From Rhodobiaceae bacterium (GTDB lineage Bacteria; Pseudomonadota; Alphaproteobacteria; RS24), in contig PBLK01000008.1 in NCBI GenBank assembly GCA_002721725.1, positions 205,618 through 252,785 on the forward strand: a DNA stretch of 47,168 bases. The letters run 5' to 3'. Under the pieces are notes generated by a model that saw only the letters and a program-made list of their open reading frames with translations, ran no database searches and had not been told where the DNA came from. Below, piece after piece: positions 17,317-47,168 of this stretch. The translations under genes and the position numbers were made by a program. Numbering within the stretch: the first letter of the stretch is position 1; each line of letters starts with the position of its first letter.

Positions 17317-18465
17317 ATGAATATGCATGCAGCAATGACCGGTGACATTAAGGCGGTGTGCGCGCAAGCTGCGGCTGAGAGCGAGGCGACGGAAACGGCG
17401 CGGCAATTATCGCCGGAGCTGGCGCGCGCTTTGGCGCGGGCGGGCTATTTCAACATGTTTGTGCCGAACGCTTTGGGCGGTCAGCAATTATCGCCGCCTG
17501 ACGCCATGGCCCGTTTTCATTATTTGGCACGTCATGATGCGGCGAGCGCTTGGGTTACCATGATCGGCGCAACGACGGCGCTTGGCGCGGCCTATCTTGA
17601 TAACGCCATTGGCGGCGAGATATTTGCCGCCAGCGAACGCATTACATGCGGCATATTTGCCCCCAATGGACGCGCGATGCGCGATGGCGATGATTACATT
17701 GTTTCCGGCCGTTGGGCCTGGGCGTCAGGCTCGGCCAATGCCGATTATATCGGTTTGGGCTGCATGACTTTCGAACATGAAGATGATGAACCATCGGGCA
17801 AAAATGTGCGTTTATTGATGGTGCCGCGCGATAAAATCATTTTTCACGACACATGGCACACAATGGGGCTGTGCGGCTCATCTTCCGGCGACGTCGAATT
17901 GCAAGAGGCGCGCATCCCGATGGCGCATAGCTATTCGCTGGCGACCGATACGCCTTGGGCCGAGGGCGCGCTTTACCAAATGCCGTATTTTGCACTTTTG
18001 GCGGCCGGCGTGGCGGCGGTCGCTTTGGGCAATGCGCGCGCCGCGCTGGATGAGGTAATCGAGCTGGTCACCGCCAAAACGGCGCAAGGCCATAGCCGCA
18101 GCTTGGCCGAACGCAGCGGCGTGCAGGCGGCTCTGGCGCAAGGCGAAGCGGAATGGCGCGCCGCCCAAGCCCTCTATGAAACGACATTGGCCGATTGTTG
18201 GCAAGCGGCGCAAGACAAAGTCATCGCGGCGGAAACAAAGGCCGATTTGCGCCTCGCCTCGACCCATGCGGTGCGCAGCTGCGCAGAGGTGGTGCGCCGT
18301 GTGCATGACATTGCCGGCGGCACATCGGTCTATAAAGCCAGTGCCATTCAGCGCCGCTTGCGCGATGCGCAGACCATGACGCAACATATGATTACCAATG
18401 CCACAACCTATGAAATGACCGGCCGCGTCTTGCTCGGCGGTTATCATCCGGGCATGCAGCTCTAG
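17317..18465 (+). CDS. Acyl-CoA dehydrogenase-fold flavin monooxygenase-like protein
   Basis: A 382-residue protein with the three-part acyl-CoA dehydrogenase fold: an N-terminal helical domain ('LARALARAGYFNMFVPNALG'), the middle beta domain ('GDDYIVSGRWAWASGSANAD', close to the HsaA/group D monooxygenase signature 'y.lsGrW.f.SG') and the C-terminal helical bundle ('VHDIAGGTSVYKASAIQRRL'). The 'SGRWAWASG' and 'GTSVYKASAIQR' features resemble two-component flavin hydroxylases and related oxidases more than true fatty acyl-CoA dehydrogenases, and no Glu of the YEGT type is present. Substrate unknown. Ribosome binding site gggagg precedes the ATG. It pairs with the true dehydrogenase 87 bp downstream. 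Confidence 0.8.
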   Translation: MNMHAAMTGDIKAVCAQAAAESEATETARQLSPELARALARAGYFNMFVPNALGGQQLSPPDAMARFHYLARHDAASAWVTMIGATTALGAAYLDNAIGGEIFAASERITCGIFAPNGRAMRDGDDYIVSGRWAWASGSANADYIGLGCMTFEHEDDEPSGKNVRLLMVPRDKIIFHDTWHTMGLCGSSSGDVELQEARIPMAHSYSLATDTPWAEGALYQMPYFALLAAGVAAVALGNARAALDEVIELVTAKTAQGHSRSLAERSGVQAALAQGEAEWRAAQALYETTLADCWQAAQDKVIAAETKADLRLASTHAVRSCAEVVRRVHDIAGGTSVYKASAIQRRLRDAQTMTQHMITNATTYEMTGRVLLGGYHPGMQL

Positions 18466-18552
18466 CCGAACCAGCCAGTTTGTCGCAAGCGCACCGCTTG
18501 CGCGCCGCATGCGAGCCGATTAACCTTAGGGTGAAACTTTTGGGAGGTTGCC

Positions 18553-19701
18553 ATGCTTGGTAATTACACATCACCTTGGATGACCGAGGATTTGACGATT
18601 TTCAAAGATGCGGCCAGCAAATTCATGCAAGCCGAATTTGTGCCGCTGGCCGATAAATGGCACGACCAGGGCATGGTCGATCGCGAAGCTTGGAACAAAG
18701 CCGGTGAGGCGGGCCTGCTTTTGACCTCAATACCGGAAGAATATGGCGGCGGTGGCGGCGACTATCGCCACGAGGCCATTATGACCGAAGAGCAGACCCG
18801 TCTGGGCATTGGCGGCTGGGGGCAATCCGTGCATTCGCTGATTTGTTCACATTATTTCCTTGCCTATGGCACGGAGGAGCAGAAGAAAAAATATCTGCCG
18901 AAAATGGCCAGCGGCGAAATGGTTTGCGCCATTGCCATGACCGAACCCGGCACCGGCTCTGATTTGCAATCGGTCAAAACCACAGCGCTCAAAGACGGCA
19001 ATGAATATGTCGTCAATGGCTCGAAAACCTTCATCACCAATGGCCAGCATTGTGACGTCGTTTTGGTGGTTGCCAAAACCGATCCCGGCCAAGGCGCCAA
19101 AGGCATTTCATTAATGGTGGTCGAGACCGAAACGGACGGTTTCGCGCGCGGGCGCAATCTTGACAAAATGGGGCAGCATGCTGCCGATACGTCAGAATTG
19201 TTTTTCGACGATGTGCGTGTGCCGGCCGATAGTGTTTTGGGCGGCGAAGAGGGGCAAGGCTTTTATCAGCTTATGCAGCAATTACCTGCCGAGCGTTTGG
19301 TCATTGCCAATGGTGCTGTGGCTGCGATGGAGCGTGCCATTCAATTGACGCTGGATTATACACGCGAGCGCGAAACCTTCGGCAATGCGATTTTCGATTA
19401 TCAAAACACCCAGTTCAAACTGGCCGAGTGCAAGGCCGATTGGATGGCGGCGCGCGCCATGGTCGACCAGTTGACGCAGCAACTCATGGACGGCACGCTT
19501 GATGCCAATACGGCGGCGGCGGCGAAATTTTGGTGCACCGAGCGCGAAAATCAGGTGATTGATACCTGCCTGCAATTTTTCGGCGGTTGGGGCTATATGG
19601 ATGAATATCCGATCAGCCGCATGTATACTGACAGCCGCGTGCAGCGTATTTATGGCGGCTCCAATGAAATCATGCGTATGTTGGTGGCGCGCGCGCTCTA
19701 G
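18553..19701 (+). CDS. Acyl-CoA dehydrogenase (long-chain/isovaleryl-type active site)
   Basis: A 382-residue FAD flavoprotein oxidising acyl-CoA to enoyl-CoA. Signatures are 'CAIAMTEPGTGSDLQSVKTT', 'YVVNGSKTFITNGQHCDV' and the C-terminal 'MDEYPISRMYTDSRVQRIYG' segment. The position that carries the catalytic Glu in medium-chain enzymes (YEGT) is Gly ('IYGGSNEIMRM'), as in long-chain and isovaleryl-CoA dehydrogenases. There the base comes from an earlier helix; the Glu in 'AAMERAIQL' is the candidate here. Ribosome binding site gggagg is six bases before the ATG. Chain-length preference cannot be read. Likely partner enzymes include the crotonase further along the window (inference). Confidence 0.93.
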   Translation: MLGNYTSPWMTEDLTIFKDAASKFMQAEFVPLADKWHDQGMVDREAWNKAGEAGLLLTSIPEEYGGGGGDYRHEAIMTEEQTRLGIGGWGQSVHSLICSHYFLAYGTEEQKKKYLPKMASGEMVCAIAMTEPGTGSDLQSVKTTALKDGNEYVVNGSKTFITNGQHCDVVLVVAKTDPGQGAKGISLMVVETETDGFARGRNLDKMGQHAADTSELFFDDVRVPADSVLGGEEGQGFYQLMQQLPAERLVIANGAVAAMERAIQLTLDYTRERETFGNAIFDYQNTQFKLAECKADWMAARAMVDQLTQQLMDGTLDANTAAAAKFWCTERENQVIDTCLQFFGGWGYMDEYPISRMYTDSRVQRIYGGSNEIMRMLVARAL

Positions 19702-19779: not shown

Positions 19780-20544
19780 ATGATTCTGCTGAAAAACCGC
19801 TTTTTATTGCCTGTCTTCGTGGGCCTATTGATTTTGTTGCCGACGGTTTCAATGGCGCAAACCGTTGAGGTGGCGGCTGATGCGGCTGCCGAAACAGCGC
19901 CCGGCTTTTGGGCGCTCTTGTTTTCCAAGGGCGGTGTGGTGACATGGGTTATTGCCCTTTTATCGGCCGTCGGCCTACCGATTGCTGCCATTAAGCTCTA
20001 TGAATTTTACCGGATGGATATTTTTCGCCCAAGCGCCCTCGAGGAGGCGCTTGGCGACATGCGGCGCGGCAAAACCGCCGGTTTGGGTGCGCGCTTGGAT
20101 GCGCTCGCCCATCCTGCAGCGCCACTTATTGCTTTTGCCTTGAGCCAAAGCAGCGCTGCGCGTTTGGCCCCGGCCGTGCTGCGCGAAGAATTGACGCGCC
20201 GCGCGCAATTTTTGGTGCGTCATCTGTCGCGCAATATTTGGGTGCTCGAATTGATTGCCGCCTCGGCCCCTTTGTTCGGCCTATTGGGCACGGTGCTCGG
20301 CATGATCATCGCTTTTCAAGGCGTTGGCCAGGGGGTTGGCGGGACTGATACGGCGTTATTGGCGGCGGGTATTTGGGAAGCCTTATTGACCACCGCTTTC
20401 GGGCTGGGCGTGGCCTTGCCGTTTTCAATTCTCGCCGCCGTTTTCAATAATGCGGTTGATGGTGTGCGCGATATGGTGGAAGACGCATTGACCGAGATTT
20501 TGGTGCGCGCCGACAGCCGAAGTGCCAAATCAAGCGAGGGCTAG
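19780..20544 (+). CDS. ExbB/TolQ/MotA-type proton channel subunit
   Basis: A 254-residue inner-membrane protein. It starts with a signal-like hydrophobic segment (residues 7-26, 'AQ' at 26-27), a short periplasmic stretch, then three channel helices at about 52-72, 157-181 and 203-223. The last two carry the family motifs 'ASAPLFGLLGTVLGMIIAF' and 'GIWEALLTTAFGLGVALPF', with the conserved Thr and Glu that line the pore. An extra N-terminal segment is common in ExbB proteins outside the enterobacterial TonB system. Two in-frame ATGs (19765, 19780) are possible; 19780 has tggag upstream. It is the first gene of a five-gene run; the next starts 3 bp later. Confidence 0.9.
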   Translation: MILLKNRFLLPVFVGLLILLPTVSMAQTVEVAADAAAETAPGFWALLFSKGGVVTWVIALLSAVGLPIAAIKLYEFYRMDIFRPSALEEALGDMRRGKTAGLGARLDALAHPAAPLIAFALSQSSAARLAPAVLREELTRRAQFLVRHLSRNIWVLELIAASAPLFGLLGTVLGMIIAFQGVGQGVGGTDTALLAAGIWEALLTTAFGLGVALPFSILAAVFNNAVDGVRDMVEDALTEILVRADSRSAKSSEG

Positions 20545-20547
20545 CCC

Positions 20548-20967
20548 GTGCGATTGGCCATCCGCCCACGCCGCGCTGCCTTTATGGGGCTGACCCCTCT
20601 TATAGATATGATTTTTTTGCTGCTGCTGTTTTTCCTGCTCGGCTCCGATTTCGTGACCTATGGACAAAGCCGTTTAGCCCCGCCGCGTGGCACTGGCGGG
20701 GAGAGCAGCGCTGCCCCGCCCGTGCTTATCACCCTGTCTGAAACTGGCGCGTTGAGCTGGAACGGCGCGCCTGCCAATGCGGCTTTTTTAAGCCGCGAAA
20801 CGACGCGCTTGGTGGCGCTCAATGAAGAGCAGACAATGGTTCTCATGCCTGCCGGCGCGGCTAATATTCAACAAGTCAGTGATATTATGGATGTGCTGCA
20901 CCATGCTGGTGCACGCTCCATCACGCTGGAGCGTGACGTGTTTGAAATTGATTTGGCAGATTTTTGA
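20548..20967 (+). CDS. ExbD/TolR-type protein with intact membrane Asp
   Basis: A 139-residue protein with one N-terminal membrane helix and a periplasmic domain. The helix starts 'LTPLIDMIFLLLLFFLLG' with Asp20, the residue that carries protons in ExbD and TolR. The C-terminal part ends with the family's 'VSDIMDVLHHAGARSITLE' helix-strand. It begins with GTG directly after the ExbB stop (3-bp gap). No ATG gives a complete membrane helix, which supports the GTG. Its stop is one base before the start of the second ExbD-like gene. Confidence 0.92.
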   Translation: MRLAIRPRRAAFMGLTPLIDMIFLLLLFFLLGSDFVTYGQSRLAPPRGTGGESSAAPPVLITLSETGALSWNGAPANAAFLSRETTRLVALNEEQTMVLMPAGAANIQQVSDIMDVLHHAGARSITLERDVFEIDLADF

Positions 20968-20968
20968 C

Positions 20969-21394
20969 ATGCAACTGAAAGAGACACGCCGCGAGATAAA
21001 ATCTATTGATTTGCTGCCACTTATCAATGTGGTGTTTCTGCTGATTTTATTCGTTTTGATTGCCGGTCGCCCCTCAACTAATCATCCGTCCAACCTCGAA
21101 GTGGCGCGCAGCACGATCGAAACCGCGCATCAAGGCGCGGCCTTGTCGGTTTGGCTGAAGCAGGATGACACTTTTTATCTGTCGGAAACGAAGCCGGTAA
21201 CGCTTGGTGAATTGACCATGCTAGTCACCGAGAAAGACCTGGCGGCGCAGGGCCTGCCTTTGGAGCTGATTGCTGACCGCCGCGCCCATGCTAGGCAATT
21301 ATTGGCTTTTCGCCGCGCAATGGCGCGCGCCGGTGTCGGTGAGATCCGCTTGAAAACTGAGGTCAGAGCGCCTTCGGCGACAAATACGCAGTGA
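20969..21394 (+). CDS. Second ExbD-like protein, with Asn in place of the membrane Asp
   Basis: A 141-residue ExbD/TolR homologue: short basic N-terminus, one membrane helix 'LLPLINVVFLLILFVLIAG' and a periplasmic domain ending 'LLAFRRAMARAGVGEIRLKT'. At residue 20, where the preceding ExbD has Asp, this one has Asn (codon AAT in 'CTTATCAATGTG'). Proton transport by ExbD and TolR depends on that carboxylate, so this copy probably cannot carry protons and may pair structurally with the intact copy. In a dimeric ExbD pair inside the ExbB pentamer this would make an asymmetric channel (inference). The ATG at 20969 follows the previous stop by one base. The open frame further upstream is within exbD and is not used. 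Confidence 0.9.
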   Translation: MQLKETRREIKSIDLLPLINVVFLLILFVLIAGRPSTNHPSNLEVARSTIETAHQGAALSVWLKQDDTFYLSETKPVTLGELTMLVTEKDLAAQGLPLELIADRRAHARQLLAFRRAMARAGVGEIRLKTEVRAPSATNTQ

Positions 21395-21420
21395 GGCATA
21401 GTGAGGCTTGGTGAGGCATA
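21391..21420 (+). repeat. Triple 10-bp tandem repeat at the ExbD2/vWA gene junction
   Basis: Three units lie end to end: GTGAGGCATA, GTGAGGCTTG, GTGAGGCATA. The first overlaps the TGA stop of the ExbD-like gene; the last ends two bases before the vWA ATG at 21423. Each unit contains a GTGAGG that resembles a ribosome binding site, with the third at proper distance. Confidence 0.85.
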
Positions 21421-21422
21421 GG

Positions 21423-22559
21423 ATGGACGATATATTGCAGAAAAGCGGCTGGTTTAGCCGGATGCGTGCGCGTCTGGTTGCGGTGCCGCGGCGCGTCTGG
21501 TTAAGCCTTTTGGCGGCCTCTTTAGCGGCGCATATTTTGGCCGTCGGCTTGGTGTTGGTTCTGCTGTTTGGCGGCGAACGGGGCGGTGGCGATGCCGAGG
21601 ACAGCCTTGTCATCTCATCGGGAGAAGCCGCCCCCGAAGATATTGATCTTAAGCTGCCGCAACATATGCCGGTTGAGGCACCGCGCTTGGCTAAGGACGA
21701 ACTCGATTTATCGGAACTTTTGGAAGTGCCGCTGGAGGCGGATTTTAATGATTTGATGATGGATAATGCGCAAATGGCGGCAATTGCCCCGGCCATGCCA
21801 TTGCCTAGCGCCGCCGTAACCCAGCGCGCCATGTCGGGCGGAGGTCTTATCTCCGGTGTGCCGCGAAGCTTTGCCGATTATATCCAGCATTTGCAAAAAA
21901 CCGGCATTGACGTGGTGTTTGCCATTGATGCCACCGGCTCGATGGTATGGGTGCATCGCACGGTGCGCCAGCGCATGGCACAATTGGCGGCCTATGTGCG
22001 CGGGCTCGTGCCTTTGGCGCGCTTCGGCATTATCGCCTATCGCGATTATAATGATATTGATTTTGTAACGCGCATTTCGCAACCCAGTTTCGATATAGAA
22101 AAAGCACGGCTTTTTATGAGCGGCATTGATGCTTTGGGTGGCGGTGACCACCCCGAAGCGGTGACGCAAGCTTTGCGCGATAGCGAGACCATTATTGGTT
22201 GGCGCAGCGGCGCCCAGCGCGTCGTCATTATTATCGGAGATGCGCCGCCGCATGCGCGCGAAACGAACGAGGCGGCAGAAATTGCCGAGCGCTTTAAATC
22301 TCGCGGCGGGCGCTTGTCTTTATTGGACAGTCGGGTTGAGGCCAATCGCGCGCTTTTGGGGCGCGGTAAGCCTACCGGTTCAGGGGTTGATTTGGTCAAA
22401 CAGGGGGTGATGCCGGTGTTTCGTAGGCTCGCCCGTTTGGGCGGCGGCACGGCGGCGACATTGGCAGCCGAGCGGGAATTGATGAAAACCCTCGCCCTAT
22501 TGATTTTTGACGACCGTTTTCACGATGAGCTGGCGCCGTTTTTGGCCAATTTGGAGTAG
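21423..22559 (+). CDS. Membrane-anchored vWA-domain protein with a TonB/TolA-like N-terminal helix
   Basis: A 378-residue protein. Residues 1-25 are short and basic (cytoplasmic), then comes one membrane helix (about 26-49, 'WLSLLAASLAAHILAVGLVL'). It contains Ser33-x3-His37, the spacing found in the membrane helix of TonB and TolA, where it contacts the ExbBD or TolQR channel. A proline- and acid-containing linker (50-155) leads to a periplasmic von Willebrand A domain (about 162-365) with the metal site 'DVVFAIDATGSM' (Asp169, Thr171, Ser173), 'GGGDHPEAV' (Asp242) and 'IIIGDAPPH' (Asp273). vWA domains bind protein ligands through a metal ion. No TonB-type C-terminal domain exists. It is the fourth gene of the run. 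Confidence 0.88.
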   Translation: MDDILQKSGWFSRMRARLVAVPRRVWLSLLAASLAAHILAVGLVLVLLFGGERGGGDAEDSLVISSGEAAPEDIDLKLPQHMPVEAPRLAKDELDLSELLEVPLEADFNDLMMDNAQMAAIAPAMPLPSAAVTQRAMSGGGLISGVPRSFADYIQHLQKTGIDVVFAIDATGSMVWVHRTVRQRMAQLAAYVRGLVPLARFGIIAYRDYNDIDFVTRISQPSFDIEKARLFMSGIDALGGGDHPEAVTQALRDSETIIGWRSGAQRVVIIIGDAPPHARETNEAAEIAERFKSRGGRLSLLDSRVEANRALLGRGKPTGSGVDLVKQGVMPVFRRLARLGGGTAATLAAERELMKTLALLIFDDRFHDELAPFLANLE

Positions 22560-22562
22560 CTG

Positions 22563-24854
22563 ATGGTGCGCTTGATGAGCCTTTTTGTTTTTCTGCTGAC
22601 GCCGCTGACGGCGGTGGCATGCGGAGCGCCGCCGTCGCTTTTGATGACCACGCCGCCGCAGCTCTTGCGCGGCTTAGAAAAAGATAAAGCAGCGTTTCTT
22701 GACGCTATGGACAATTATTCGATTGCGATGGAGGCGTGTTATGACGGCCCACAAGGGCCACTGGAATTGGCTCCACATATCAAAGCGGCAAATTTGTTGC
22801 ATGCCAATATCACCGCCATGCGCCGTTTGGCCGAAGATAAGGTGCGCGATAATGAGTTTGATTATGAGGCGCTGTTATCATCCCCGCTTTGGGGCGATAT
22901 TGAAGCCATGCGGGTGGCCGCCACCTATGCCACCGCATGGGGCGCTTTGGCGGCAGCAGTGCGCCATATTTCAGCCGAAGACAAAAAGCAAGCGCTCGAC
23001 CTAGCCGGTGAGGCGATGCAGCAATTGACCTTCGAATTCAAGCATCCGGTCTTGGTGCAGCGCGCCATGTATGGTTTGGCGACGTCCCAGATTGAAGGCG
23101 GCCGCCTAGCGGCAGCAGTCGCAACCTTGACGCGGCTAAGGCAATCTTTGGCGCGCGGCGGCGATGCTGATTTTAAAATATCGGTTGACGGTTTTTATGC
23201 CCGCATCACCGCCCCGGGCTACCAGCCGCCGGCGCCCCTATTTGAGACGGCGGAAACGCCGGCCAATGAAAGCGGCGCGCGCTTGGCCTTGACTGGCAAG
23301 GCCGGCGATGATGCGGTTAAACTGGCGCGTATTGCCTTGGCGGAGGCGCGTCCGGCCTCAGAGATAATCGGCATTTTGGAACCGGCTTTGCGCGGCACGC
23401 GTACCAGCGCGCGAGCCGCACTTGCCTTGATTGCCCGCGACCAGCTTTTATTGAAGGCGATGGATTATGCGCCTGGGCCATCTCTGCGGGTCATGCGCCG
23501 CGCTTTTGCAGACGGTCAATATGGTCAATTGGTTGCGAGCTGGCCCGATTTGAAACCCTATTATCCGCTTTTGCCCGACGGTTTGAAGCGGCAAGTGGAT
23601 TACCATATGGGAGTGGCGCGCCTCAATTTGGGCGAATTGGTTTTGGCGCTCGACCATTTGCGCGCGGCGCGCCGAGCGACACCGAGCGGCGCGGAGGCGT
23701 CGCGCCTCGATAAGCTGATCATTTTGGCGCGCCTGTCGGTCGATAAGCCGCCTAAGGCGCCGCTGATTGCGTTGGCCAAAAAAAACGTGCGCCCGCCGCA
23801 GAAAATAGAAAAACAAAGAGCCATTGATGACCCGCCGCCGACGCCGGAAGAGGCGCTTGATGACATGCTCGATTTGCGCGCCCGCATCGTGTTGGCCCGC
23901 CATGCGGCGGCGCAAGCCGATTGGGCGACGGCGGACGGTTATTTGACTGGCATCGGACCCCAGCAATCAGCCTATCAATTATTTCTCGGTATGCGGGTGC
24001 GGCTCTTGGCCGAGGCGGTGCGCGGGCGTTTAAAGAAAGGCGAAAGCGTCAAGGCGGTGCGCAGCATTGCGCGCGGTGGGCATATTCTTTATCGCCTTTG
24101 GCGCGACAGCGATTGCTTGCCCGGCTGCCCGAGGAGTAATCGCCTCGCAGTGCACCGCGCGGCTTTTGAAACCGCGCTGATGGCCCGACTTAATAGCACC
24201 GCTTTCGGCCTTGCTTGGGGTGGCTTTGTTGATGAGGGCGGCGACATCAAACCTTTTGTTGGCCAGGCCCTCCCCTATTTGATCGATCAAGCCGATGGTG
24301 AAAGGCTGATGGCGATGCTGGAAAACGATAACGAAGATTTGGCAGCCTTTACACTGGGTCAATGGAAAAGACATTTGAGTGCGCGCCTCAAAAAACCTGA
24401 TTTCGACGGGCGCTATCAATTTTTGAGCGCATTGGCCGACATGCAAGGTCGCCCGCATGCGGTTTTGCTGGAGGCATTGGTCGAACATGATTTAACGCGC
24501 GAGCGACCGGCAGAGGCGCTTATCCATGCTGAAACATTGGCCGTCAATTTCCCACGCCGACCGTCGGCTTGGTTTTGGCGCGCTGCCGCTTTGCAAGCCA
24601 ATCAGCGTGGGCTGGAAGCGGCGCGCACTTTATCCTCATTGGCGCAGCGCACCCCGTCCGATGATCCGGTCGGCATGGGTGCGCGGCTCGGCCTGGCAGC
24701 CCTGTTCGTCGATTTGCAGCGCGGTAACCAGGCCTGCGCCATGCGCGAGAAAATATTTTCACGCCCGCAAGCCGAATCACGCTGGCGCAATGCGGCGCAA
24801 GCTTTTCCGCCCTTAAAGGATTGGCAAAAAACCACAGACCGCTATTGTGGCTGA
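22563..24854 (+). CDS. Large exported helical-repeat (TPR-like) protein
   Basis: A 763-residue protein with an N-terminal signal ('LMSLFVFLLTPLTAVAC'), where Cys20 could be either the lipid-bearing Cys of a weak lipobox (AVAC) or the first mature residue. The rest is alpha-helical with repeated pairs such as 'HMGVARLNLGELVLALDHLR' and 'PSAWFWRAAALQANQRGLEA', read as TPR-like repeats though divergent. Several Cys pairs ('CLPGC', 'ACAMREK', the final 'RYCG') fit an oxidising compartment. I recognise no catalytic motif. It starts 3 bp after the vWA gene and ends the cluster, convergent with purH (10-bp gap). It probably works with the vWA protein in the periplasm (inference). Confidence 0.8.
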   Translation: MVRLMSLFVFLLTPLTAVACGAPPSLLMTTPPQLLRGLEKDKAAFLDAMDNYSIAMEACYDGPQGPLELAPHIKAANLLHANITAMRRLAEDKVRDNEFDYEALLSSPLWGDIEAMRVAATYATAWGALAAAVRHISAEDKKQALDLAGEAMQQLTFEFKHPVLVQRAMYGLATSQIEGGRLAAAVATLTRLRQSLARGGDADFKISVDGFYARITAPGYQPPAPLFETAETPANESGARLALTGKAGDDAVKLARIALAEARPASEIIGILEPALRGTRTSARAALALIARDQLLLKAMDYAPGPSLRVMRRAFADGQYGQLVASWPDLKPYYPLLPDGLKRQVDYHMGVARLNLGELVLALDHLRAARRATPSGAEASRLDKLIILARLSVDKPPKAPLIALAKKNVRPPQKIEKQRAIDDPPPTPEEALDDMLDLRARIVLARHAAAQADWATADGYLTGIGPQQSAYQLFLGMRVRLLAEAVRGRLKKGESVKAVRSIARGGHILYRLWRDSDCLPGCPRSNRLAVHRAAFETALMARLNSTAFGLAWGGFVDEGGDIKPFVGQALPYLIDQADGERLMAMLENDNEDLAAFTLGQWKRHLSARLKKPDFDGRYQFLSALADMQGRPHAVLLEALVEHDLTRERPAEALIHAETLAVNFPRRPSAWFWRAAALQANQRGLEAARTLSSLAQRTPSDDPVGMGARLGLAALFVDLQRGNQACAMREKIFSRPQAESRWRNAAQAFPPLKDWQKTTDRYCG

Positions 24855-43461: not shown

Positions 43462-43622
43462 CAAAAACATATCCGAACTTCCAAAAAATATTTTGCATCA
43501 GTCAAATTTCAGACCTTAAAACTTGGCGTTTGGCAAAGATTGTCGCAAACTGTCAGTAAATGAGACCTTCAACGGCGTGCCCCAAATGGAAGGTCCGAAC
43601 AACACCTCTGAAAGGAAAAGAG

Positions 43623-44411
43623 ATGAGCTTTGAGACGATTGCATACGAAAAAAGAAATAATTCTGCTTTGATTACTCTAAATCGGCCTGAAAGATTAAAT
43701 GCCTGGACACCTTTTATGGCCGAGGAACTTGCACAAGCTATAACACAAGCAAATGAAGATAACTCCGTTGGCGCGATAGTTATGACCGGCGCTGGGAAGG
43801 GGTTTTGTGCTGGGGCCGACATAGAAGAGACATTTCAAACTAGAATTGACGGTAAAGACCCCGGTAACGACACCCAATCTGGCAGCGGGGGAATGCCAAA
43901 GAATGTTGACTGGGTAAAGCTAATTAGAGAATCAAAGCCAATGATTGCAGCTGTGAATGGCGCAGCCGTTGGTATTGGTATTACTATGATCTTACCCTTT
44001 GATATTATTATTGCGTCGGAAAAGGCAAAGTTCGGAATGTTTTTTATCCAGATGGGTTTAGTTCCTGAACTCGCTAGCAGCCATTTTCTTGTTCAAAGAA
44101 TGGGGTTTGGTAAGGCGAGCGAAATGTGTCTGTCGGGAAGACTAATCGGAGCTAGGGAGGCAATGGCCTCCAATTTGGTCGACTTCTTAACAGCAGAAGA
44201 TGAACTTTTGCCGGAAGCATTGAGCAGGGCCGATGTTATTGGCGCTAATCCGAAACCCCAACTGAAAATGGTCAAAGAACTTTTAAGCCTCAACGGCAGT
44301 GAGGTTGATCTTGAAAAAGCCCAAGAGCGCGAAAGTGAGTTACTTAGGGAGTGTTGGAAGACTGATGAACATAAGAGGGCTGTAAGAGAGTTTCTTGCAA
44401 AATCTTCTTAA
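43623..44411 (+). CDS. Enoyl-CoA hydratase/isomerase (crotonase) with atypical codon use
   Basis: A 262-residue crotonase. The oxyanion-hole segments are 'GKGFCAGADIEETF' and 'AAVNGAAVGIGITMILPFD', and Glu149 in 'MGLVPELASS' is at the place of the second catalytic Glu of hydratases. Base composition differs from its neighbours: nearly all Arg codons are AGA or AGG, where the flanking genes use CGC, and the gene is visibly AT-richer. This suggests transfer from a lower-GC source or relaxed codon selection. The ATG at 43623 has aaagga upstream (gaaaggaaaagag). The exact acyl-CoA substrate is unknown. Confidence 0.92.
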   Translation: MSFETIAYEKRNNSALITLNRPERLNAWTPFMAEELAQAITQANEDNSVGAIVMTGAGKGFCAGADIEETFQTRIDGKDPGNDTQSGSGGMPKNVDWVKLIRESKPMIAAVNGAAVGIGITMILPFDIIIASEKAKFGMFFIQMGLVPELASSHFLVQRMGFGKASEMCLSGRLIGAREAMASNLVDFLTAEDELLPEALSRADVIGANPKPQLKMVKELLSLNGSEVDLEKAQERESELLRECWKTDEHKRAVREFLAKSS

Positions 44412-44862: not shown

Positions 44863-47168
44863 ATGTTGAAAAGTAAGTCGCGTCTACTCGGGTTGAGTGC
44901 GCTTGTGGGTGCGGGGCTAATAGCCGCCGGCCCAGTCTCCGCGGCCAATGTAAAGTTGGGCAGCTGGGACGTACAAATTGATAATACCGCGTCAGTCGGC
45001 ATGTCATGGTTAATGAAAGATGTCAGAGAACAGTATTTACCTATTGTAAATGGTGGCCCCGCTGACGGTTCTGTTTATGGCGCTGCTAACGCTGCCACCG
45101 CTGCTGCTGCGGCTGCTGGGGATGACACCGCTTTGGTTGGCGCTGCTGTTGCCGCAGGGTGCGATGAAGGTTATGGCGGGCTTTGCCAGGAAATTCTGGC
45201 CGTTCCAAATTTCGACGGATCAATTAACTCCGACGATGGCCGGCTAAACTTCGATAAGGGTGATGCATACTCCGCCCCAATTCGACTGACCACTGAAATC
45301 GAAGCTTCGCGTGGGCCTATTCGCGCATTTGCTCGTATTAATGCCTGGCACGATGCGATAATGATGGACGAGGACTTCAACCGAGGCGGCAATCTCGACG
45401 ACGATGGCGAGAGAAACGCAGGTCAAAACATTGAGCTTCTCGACGCGTTTGTGAGCTATGATGGCGATGTCGGAAGCATGCCTTACACTCTTCGCTTGGG
45501 TAAGCAAGTGATTAACTGGGGTGAAGCTACCTTTATCCCTGGTGGCAACTCAGCATTTAACCCGATTGACGTGGCCGCTCTTCGTCGTCCAGGCGCTGAA
45601 ATCAAAGAGGCTCTGCTTCCTGTTGAAGCTCTCTATGGTTCAATCGCTGTCACTCAGGACCTCTCACTCGAAGCCTATGTTGGCGGATGGGAACACTACC
45701 GCTTGGAAGCGGGTGGTACGCCAATGGGCGTTAGCGATAGCTTCACCGACGGCGTGTCAGGCGGCAACCCTAAAGACGTTTACTATATCGGTGGTGGTTT
45801 TAAGTCAGGCGATCAGTTCGCCTGTGAGGGCGCTGCCCCGCTAGCTGCTTTGGGTGGCGGTGACCCCACAAGCCCATACTCCGCAAGCGCGGCCATTATT
45901 GGGGCTGTCCTTGCTACCGGCGGCGTTAACTGCGCCACAGGTAAAGACGCAATTACCAGCTGGGACGAAGGCCAAGCCGAAGTCCAGCGGGCTGCGTCGG
46001 GTGACACAAATATCGTCACTGGCTTAGATGATAGAAATGGCGATGAACAAATCGGTCTTGCCGTTCGCTATTATTCAGAGGCTTTAAATTCAACTGAATT
46101 TGCGCTTTATTACCAGAAAGGCGATAGCCGTCTTCCCTATATTAGCTATCAGACACCTGGCGAGATTGGCATCAAGGCATCCTCAGTTTCCAGCAAGGCC
46201 TCAACTGTAGGACGTGGCGCTGGTGTAGCTGGTTGTGCTGCCATGGCGCAAGCCACTCTGCCGACCGGAACGGCCACGCTGTATAATCCAGCTTATGCTG
46301 CTGTGAGTGTCGTTGACACCCATGATTTCTTGGGCGATGCCACGATCCAAGCGGTTGCTGACGGCGCAGCCGCCGGCTTGGCAGCTCAGGGTGCTGCTGC
46401 CGCTGCGGCAGTCGCGGGTGGTGCTGACCCTGCAACCGAGCCGTTCATCCTGTTTAATAACTACGCGAGAACGGCTACTGCGGGTGACACCATTGCCTAT
46501 ATGCAGGAAACCAACTGTCTTTTGAATATTGCTCAGTTGAACGCGGGTATGTCGCTTGGCTCGGCTTTTGATGGCTTGGGTCAATTGCATACCGGTGCGA
46601 CAAGCTTTGCGCCTATTCCTAACATCCAGTTGTTTGCTGAATTCCCTGAAGTTGAAACATATGGTTTCAGTTTCAACACAACGGCGTTCGGCTGGGGTGT
46701 GCAAGGTGACTTTGCATGGCGTCCTGAAATGCCACTGCAATTCGACACCGACTCGTTGACTATTGCGGCTCTCTTTAACAACTGCGCTTTTACAACTGTT
46801 GTTGCTTTGGAGGCTATCTACCAATCGGGGTCGACATATGCGACAGAGCATGCCGGAGACGTTGGTTGTTCTAATACTGACAAATACATGCGGGGTTACA
46901 CAACGGATCACGATGTGTTGACCTGGGACATCGGAACGACCGCCACATTTACGCGATCAAACCCGGTGGTTTCAGCTCTGAGATCCGACCTCGGTATTTT
47001 CCTGACGGAATTCCAAGGCCTAGTCATTGACGACATCGAAGACGAGCGTGGCAACACCGGCGGCATTGGCGCCCTTGGTGCGGCCCAGGGCATTACGCCT
47101 CTCTCTAATACATGTGTTGGCGGATCGGATCTCCCATTGAACGGCATTTTGTCGATCGATGACCGGAC
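44863..47168 (+). CDS. DUF1302-family outer-membrane protein, 3' end beyond the window
   Basis: The open frame runs from the ATG at 44863 to the window end (768 codons) without a stop. A signal peptide ('LLGLSALVGAGLIAAGPVSA') precedes 'ANVKLGSWDVQIDNTASVGM', then 'LRLGKQVINWGEATFIPGGN' followed by 'SAFNPIDVAALRRPG', hallmarks of DUF1302 proteins, which resemble porins and often accompany DUF1329 and genes for hydrophobic substrate use. Many alternating strands and acidic loops fit a beta-barrel. Two Ala-rich insertions (about residues 74-99 and 497-526) and several Cys pairs set it apart from a plain barrel. Ribosome binding site gaggaggg is excellent. It may import a hydrophobic substrate (inference). 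Confidence 0.85.
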   Translation, partial: MLKSKSRLLGLSALVGAGLIAAGPVSAANVKLGSWDVQIDNTASVGMSWLMKDVREQYLPIVNGGPADGSVYGAANAATAAAAAAGDDTALVGAAVAAGCDEGYGGLCQEILAVPNFDGSINSDDGRLNFDKGDAYSAPIRLTTEIEASRGPIRAFARINAWHDAIMMDEDFNRGGNLDDDGERNAGQNIELLDAFVSYDGDVGSMPYTLRLGKQVINWGEATFIPGGNSAFNPIDVAALRRPGAEIKEALLPVEALYGSIAVTQDLSLEAYVGGWEHYRLEAGGTPMGVSDSFTDGVSGGNPKDVYYIGGGFKSGDQFACEGAAPLAALGGGDPTSPYSASAAIIGAVLATGGVNCATGKDAITSWDEGQAEVQRAASGDTNIVTGLDDRNGDEQIGLAVRYYSEALNSTEFALYYQKGDSRLPYISYQTPGEIGIKASSVSSKASTVGRGAGVAGCAAMAQATLPTGTATLYNPAYAAVSVVDTHDFLGDATIQAVADGAAAGLAAQGAAAAAAVAGGADPATEPFILFNNYARTATAGDTIAYMQETNCLLNIAQLNAGMSLGSAFDGLGQLHTGATSFAPIPNIQLFAEFPEVETYGFSFNTTAFGWGVQGDFAWRPEMPLQFDTDSLTIAALFNNCAFTTVVALEAIYQSGSTYATEHAGDVGCSNTDKYMRGYTTDHDVLTWDIGTTATFTRSNPVVSALRSDLGIFLTEFQGLVIDDIEDERGNTGGIGALGAAQGITPLSNTCVGGSDLPLNGILSIDDR

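Follow-up and report, generated by a model that had tools for sequence, protein, structure and literature searches.

The window, that is, the whole 47,168-nucleotide stretch of DNA analysed from a marine Rhodobiaceae bacterium, carries a unit of five genes in the order exbB-exbD1-exbD2-vWA-TPR, predicted to specify an inner-membrane machine. TonB and Tol-Pal systems are encoded separately in the genome, which makes the vWA unit an extra system. The features concerned are as follows.

19780..20544, + strand: ExbB/TolQ-like subunit of the proton channel, 254 aa, of the long type that has an N-terminal extension (PF01618, 2.6e-25)
20548..20967, + strand: ExbD1, TolR/ExbD-like, proton-binding Asp kept, PLIDMIF (PF02472, 1.2e-17)
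20969..21394, + strand: ExbD2, TolR/ExbD-like, Asn20 at the essential Asp position, PLINVVF (PF02472, 1.3e-9)
21423..22559, + strand: predicted vWA-tipped TonB/TolA-like transducer, 378 aa (ORF, Pfam, Foldseek, alignment)
21498..21569, + strand: lone membrane helix of the transducer, residues 26-49 (sequence; AF2 helix 23-49, local pLDDT 71-87)
21519..21533, + strand: predicted Ser33-x3-His37 motor-contact motif (invariant in 49/49 orthologues)
21633..21659, + strand: candidate D-box-like strand, residues 71-79, P-EDIDLKL-P (by-eye pattern compared with PMC10907165)
21870..22547, + strand: vWA domain, residues 150-375, MIDAS D169-x-T171-x-S173, D242, D273 (Pfam, Foldseek, alignment)
22563..24854, + strand: TPR-type protein of 763 aa, exported and all-helical, encoded by a conserved partner gene (AF2 all-helical, pLDDT 82; TPR_6, 6e-4)
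44863..47168, + strand: DUF1302 outer-membrane protein, extending past the window end; tentative associate (the same gene kinds flank the motor directly in gammaproteobacteria)

The transducer reading frame runs from an ATG at 21423 to a stop ending at 22559, with a possible alternative TTG start at 21408. Its only membrane helix, W26 to F49, reads WLSLLAASLAAHILAVGLVLVLLF and holds Ser33 (codon TCT, 21519-21521) and His37 (codon CAT, 21531-21533) at i, i+4 spacing; frame, helix and residues are exactly as given in the preliminary description of this DNA. Residues 1-25 include six Lys/Arg against two Asp/Glu, and with this basic segment before the helix and an acidic linker after it, the positive-inside rule predicts an N-in topology. 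The layout proposed earlier, with a short N-in start, one helix, a Pro/acid linker and a C-terminal domain, holds except in its proline, since linker residues 52-140 comprise 18 Asp/Glu, 8 Pro and 5 Lys/Arg and are acidic rather than proline-rich. All orthologues retain a linker about 100 residues long. Within it, residues 71-79 alternate between hydrophobic and polar with Pro on both flanks, as judged by eye and without statistics, and D75, L76 and L78 are invariant within the PS1 family. Pro-flanked alternating strands after the helix were picked out by eye in this and other homologues (IDLKL-P in the window; MTVEVEKQP, VVIEIPP and IVVEVP in gammaproteobacteria; PIPVEMKYAP in the remote genome G053), and by eye only they resemble the D-box of TonB and TolA, the strand bound by ExbD (PMC10907165).

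Pfam and NCBIfam matched the transducer to vWA only, with neither a TonB_C nor a TolA C-terminal domain found by these two resources, and the Pfam match on the C-terminal part was below cut-off (VWA_4, 8e-5). Foldseek searches with the transducer model, whose mean pLDDT is only 54, matched the vWA domains of BatB, integrin I and CMG2 (the anthrax receptor), BatB being the best bacterial match. The MIDAS positions D169, T171, S/T173, D242 (47/49) and D273 are conserved among orthologues. Fold match and residues together bear out the earlier claim of a C-terminal vWA domain of the metal-binding type, in which the metal itself would be expected at the MIDAS site.

The alignment comprised 49 orthologues, 20 alpha- and 29 gammaproteobacterial, with identity down to about 30%. 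Ser33 and His37 are present in all of them and are the sole invariant residues within positions 1-99, while the whole protein has 41 invariant positions. Among residues 22-51 no other position is invariant, Trp26 being kept in 48/49, and within the PS1 family most helix positions near the pair vary while these two are constant. The Ser33 codon varies freely in the family (TCT/TCC/TCA/TCG) under a constant residue; His37 is encoded by CAT at 21 of 23 loci. The homologue alignment suggested in the preliminary description thus gave the opposite of free variation among orthologues beside ExbBD. As a chance background, 746 kb of the window genome was reduced to 684 crude ORFs, 111 of them with a single N-terminal hydrophobic helix; S-x3-H occurred in three of the 111, namely TolA, the vWA transducer and one signal peptide. 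TolA, in the tol-pal cluster, carries SLALH, i.e. the same S-L-A-x-H as the transducer. The canonical TonB of PS1 genomes (L125; other tonB loci L104-L127) has a membrane helix without His, e.g. AVVTTIALFLTMKVLVTG, in contrast to the helices of the vWA transducer and of TolA from that genome, which bear one, and adjoins two ExbB-type genes, apparently as a TtpC-type system.

In E. coli, TonB Ser16/His20 contact ExbB Ser34 and Trp38 with Pro190 behind, and TolA Ser18/His22 make the same contacts on TolQ (PMC12215075). ExbB of the present unit keeps the pore threonines equivalent to E. coli Thr148/Thr181 in 41/41 orthologues, and the equivalent of Ser34 (Ser62 in the window) in 37/37 aligned orthologues, where the register of helix 1 was set by hand from the K-x-x-E/Q-F segment and the alignments to solved structures span helices 2 and 3 only. 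The position of Trp38 is occupied by Leu, Val or Phe, and that of Pro190 by Pro in all alphaproteobacteria and 12/22 gammaproteobacteria and by Ile in 10/22 gammaproteobacteria. The predicted transducer-ExbB contact is related, not identical, to the E. coli TonB-ExbB contact. The coupling to a neighbouring motor claimed in the preliminary description is nevertheless strongly supported at the level of sequence, by the invariance of Ser33/His37 and by the rarity of S-x3-H among lone N-terminal helices in the part of the genome covered.

The vWA gene was found in 20 of 28 PS1-family genomes. Genus g5 of this family (six genomes) has neither the vWA gene nor the corresponding exbB, its ExbB relatives being only TolQ, TonB-cluster and flagellar MotA members; 261-aa ExbB-like genes of g5, considered as a diverged copy of the motor, were rejected as flagellar MotA beside MotB. 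Profile searches of gammaproteobacteria (a label that for G628 and its class was assigned from gene content) returned true homologues at E 1e-69 to 1e-76, and in one gammaproteobacterial order the transducer occurs in 27/36 genomes. The five-gene order is common to the PS1-clade alphaproteobacteria, where contigs allow, and to most gammaproteobacterial loci. In profile searches of alphaproteobacteria full orthologues were confined to the PS1 family and G053. Signal-peptide vWA proteins and YfbK-like proteins (E about 1e-20 to 1e-28) were set aside, their match being confined to the vWA core, and a plasmid search with the transducer returned generic vWA proteins only.

The remote alphaproteobacterial homologue of G053 has Ala-x3-His in its helix and no motor genes beside it, and of the ExbB-like genes inspected in that genome none had the appearance of a motor dedicated to the vWA gene. 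In this single case, loss of Ser accompanies loss of the neighbouring motor, and because His is kept where Ser is replaced by Ala, His appears the more constrained of the two, as in TonB. One in-frame TAA parts the helix half of the G053 gene (L053, 2831-4009) from the vWA half, which could be a split gene or an assembly error. Three gammaproteobacterial genomes (G968, G1087 and G1088) have transducer and TPR genes with no adjacent exbBD and no Asn-type ExbD genome-wide, and they keep S-x3-H, so the need for a dedicated motor is not universal.

The TPR gene is the next gene after vWA in every locus whose contig extends that far. Invariance of Cys20, Cys59, Cys518, Cys522 and Cys725 in its product suggests periplasmic disulfides; Cys20 lies at the end of the signal peptide, where the lipobox is ambiguous. 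Comparison of the TPR model with the PDB gave only long helical repeats with TM below 0.3 and no informative match. Upstream of the unit, two acyl-CoA dehydrogenase genes (17317-19701) immediately precede exbB.

At the site corresponding to E. coli ExbD Asp25 the two ExbD proteins differ, with Asp in ExbD1 (42/42) and Asn in ExbD2 (42/42) in both classes. An alignment of 11 ExbD2 proteins places Asn20 among seven invariant columns, although gammaproteobacterial members are only 18-26% identical to that of the window. In the window genome, TolR and the ExbD of the TonB cluster have Asp, and among all ExbD/TolR proteins in six genomes searched every member outside the vWA system has it. As judged from these alignments, the ExbD2 Asn is a selected feature and not decay, because it is invariant in both classes while other ExbD/TolR proteins carry Asp, and in the genomes checked it is exclusive to the vWA system. 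In E. coli the D25N substitution inactivates ExbD (PMC11658791), so the Asp/Asn pair is a natural version of an inactivating substitution. In a search of open-licence literature, no description of an ExbD partner bearing Asn came up. The simplest reading is that of an ExbD1:ExbD2 heterodimer with one protonatable subunit, and homodimers of each are possible. Pore threonines and the ExbD1 Asp are shared with the ExbBD/TolQR 5:2 motors, from which the unit departs in that its two ExbD proteins differ from each other, ExbD2 carrying Asn in place of the essential Asp.

With TonB and TolA the transducer shares the N-in single helix, Ser-x3-His, a linker with a Pro-flanked strand and a dedicated ExbBD/TolQR-type motor, but it ends in a vWA domain instead of a TonB_C or TolA C-terminal domain. 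Where the full SHLS motif has Leu at His+7 and Ser at His+11, the window protein has Val44 and Leu48, and orthologues have V/I/L/M at 44 and L or I at 48. The preliminary description had considered a transducer ending in a vWA domain unusual. This can no longer be said, as Williams-Jones et al. in 2025 predicted vWA force transducers of unknown function with a Ser/His helix, a linker with a motor box and a vWA domain, encoded beside tolQ-like, two tolR-like and TPR genes, and modelled their His on the motor (PMC12204202). The window protein shares the Ser/His helix, the linker of about 100 residues and the C-terminal vWA domain, and its unit shares the tolQ-like, two unlike tolR-like and TPR neighbours; the published transducers differ in centring on the PVC group and in having TPR upstream, whereas in the window it is downstream. 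By architecture and gene context, direct Tichowtungia homology aside, the window transducer is probably a member of that family. The main text of PMC12204202 makes no mention of alphaproteobacterial PS1 members, an Asn/Asp ExbD split, DUF1302 or Ame, and the parts that appear new here are the Asp/Asn pair and the Ame-like setting. To the published prediction the present data add a quantitative test, with contact residues kept in 49/49 proteins and one five-gene order in two bacterial classes.

In 17 gammaproteobacterial loci the order is MMPL - YCF48-type - DUF1302 - [exbB exbD1 exbD2 vWA TPR] - AMP-ligase - CobW - DUF1329, with DUF1302 found in 12, DUF1329 in 12 and MMPL in 9, several of the loci being truncated at contig ends. 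The YCF48-type proteins are presumably of the same kind as the COG4447 protein of AmeABCD. As far as the available part of its description goes, AmeABCD is an apolar monoterpene tolerance system of a DUF1302, a DUF1329 and a COG4447 protein with an HAE3 RND pump (PMC6394551), the same four protein kinds that the gammaproteobacterial motor loci carry (DUF1302, DUF1329, YCF48-type and MMPL). Within that same part of the source the published cassette, unlike the loci here, has no ExbBD or vWA protein. In L200-L203 and L234-L247 the unit lies inside such an AmeABCD-like cassette, and genes for an AMP-ligase, a CobW GTPase and DUF1329 follow it downstream. In the window genome DUF1302 is about 20 kb from the motor, as it is at similar distance in two related genomes, and past the window end (L253, contig C7:250001-270000) it is followed by two DUF1329-type genes and one YCF48-type gene; an enoyl-CoA hydratase gene (43560-44411) stands just before it. 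Three PS1 genomes (G004, G024 and G016) have the motor unit with no DUF1302 match, so an Ame-like client is not universal. The Ame link is strong in gammaproteobacteria and only suggestive in PS1. Such a neighbourhood offers the first functional hint and the first candidate client for vWA transducers.

Patterns detected are consistent with a dedicated Ton/Tol-type machine driven by proton-motive force and bearing a vWA-tipped arm, a reading to which we give a probability of about 0.75. Five ExbB subunits would surround an ExbD1 (Asp):ExbD2 (Asn) heterodimer, which would presumably rotate, and the transducer helix would dock outside the ExbB ring through Ser33/His37 in the manner of TonB Ser16/His20 and TolA Ser18/His22. 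The periplasmic ExbD dimer would grip the short strand just past the helix, and the linker may then relay motion, and so force, across the periplasm to the vWA domain, where a divalent metal at the MIDAS site would mediate client binding. Of the candidates for a periplasmic partner of the transducer, the exported TPR protein is the most likely. In gammaproteobacteria the client is likely the AmeABCD-like cassette (DUF1302 outer-membrane, DUF1329 LolA-like and YCF48-type proteins and the MMPL pump), and there the machine may power the passage of apolar compounds through the outer membrane, both the outer-membrane target and the direction of transport being putative. This reading is favoured because Ser33/His37 are invariant, the gene order is common to two classes, and vWA and exbB are both absent in g5; because ExbB keeps its pore threonines and the Ser34 contact and TolA of the genome shares S-L-A-x-H; and because the E. 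coli structures (PMC12215075), the independent prediction of the family (PMC12204202) and the Ame-like flanks in gammaproteobacteria agree with it. To be weighed against it are an SHLS motif only half present, the replaced Trp38, Ile for Pro190 in part of the gammaproteobacteria, the three genomes with a transducer and no adjacent exbBD, and the three with the unit and no DUF1302.

An alternative explanation could be that the transducer docks through Ser33/His37 with no transfer of force, acting in a metal-dependent way as regulator, anchor or assembly chaperone for ExbB-ExbD or for the TPR protein, in the style of BatA/BatB or YfbK-type proteins. Bat operons pair vWA and TPR genes and are accompanied by a MoxR-type AAA ATPase gene. 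That pairing and the top bacterial Foldseek match to BatB agree with such a role, as does the fact that no outer-membrane target was found in the PS1 clade, but a MoxR-type AAA ATPase gene was not seen among annotated neighbours, the Ser/His pair and Pro-flanked strand are hallmarks of transducers, and the long linker is kept in all orthologues, which together make this explanation unlikely. It is quite improbable that the pair is kept for some other cause, for instance dimerisation of the helix or the sensing of local pH, with a convergent resemblance to the motif. Its retention in the three gammaproteobacterial genomes with no exbBD beside the gene speaks for this, and co-conservation of the ExbB Ser34 equivalent, a spacing identical to that in the genome's own TolA, and the near-universal ExbBD neighbourhood speak against it.

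The vWA helix could also itself be the motor axle inside an ExbB pentamer, like MotB or ExbD, as in the second (TPH-vWA) family of PMC12204202, in which the vWA helix carries Asp and an exbD gene is absent. The window unit resembles that family in having a membrane-tethered vWA protein beside a tolQ/exbB-like gene, and the class does contain vWA genes that lie next to a MotA/ExbB gene and whose helix bears an Asp. However, the transducer helix 26-49 has no Asp or Glu and the unit has two separate exbD genes, and we regard this possibility as very remote. The examples from other alphaproteobacteria (L054; L055, 3363-6553, where two such vWA proteins follow a MotA/ExbB-like gene) fit the second family and are of a design separate from that of the window transducer.

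Returning to the proton-driven machine with a vWA-tipped arm, a more specific version of it is that the 5:2 motor has an obligate, chemically asymmetric axle, with ExbD1 supplying the sole protonatable Asp and ExbD2 a selected Asn, and that it drives the arm to load or open a route for apolar compounds through the outer membrane. We put this forward tentatively, at somewhat less than even odds. If the axle is asymmetric in this way, the motor would have half the usual number of proton-binding events per turn and a built-in polarity. The Asp/Asn pair makes directly testable the long-standing question of whether a 5:2 motor requires proton carriage by both of its axle subunits. Tandem exbD genes also occur in other systems (G1087:C243, G1088:C62 and G1088:C24; L277, L278, L282, L283, L285 and L286), where both members have Asp, and these pairs are candidates for unrelated heterodimeric motors.
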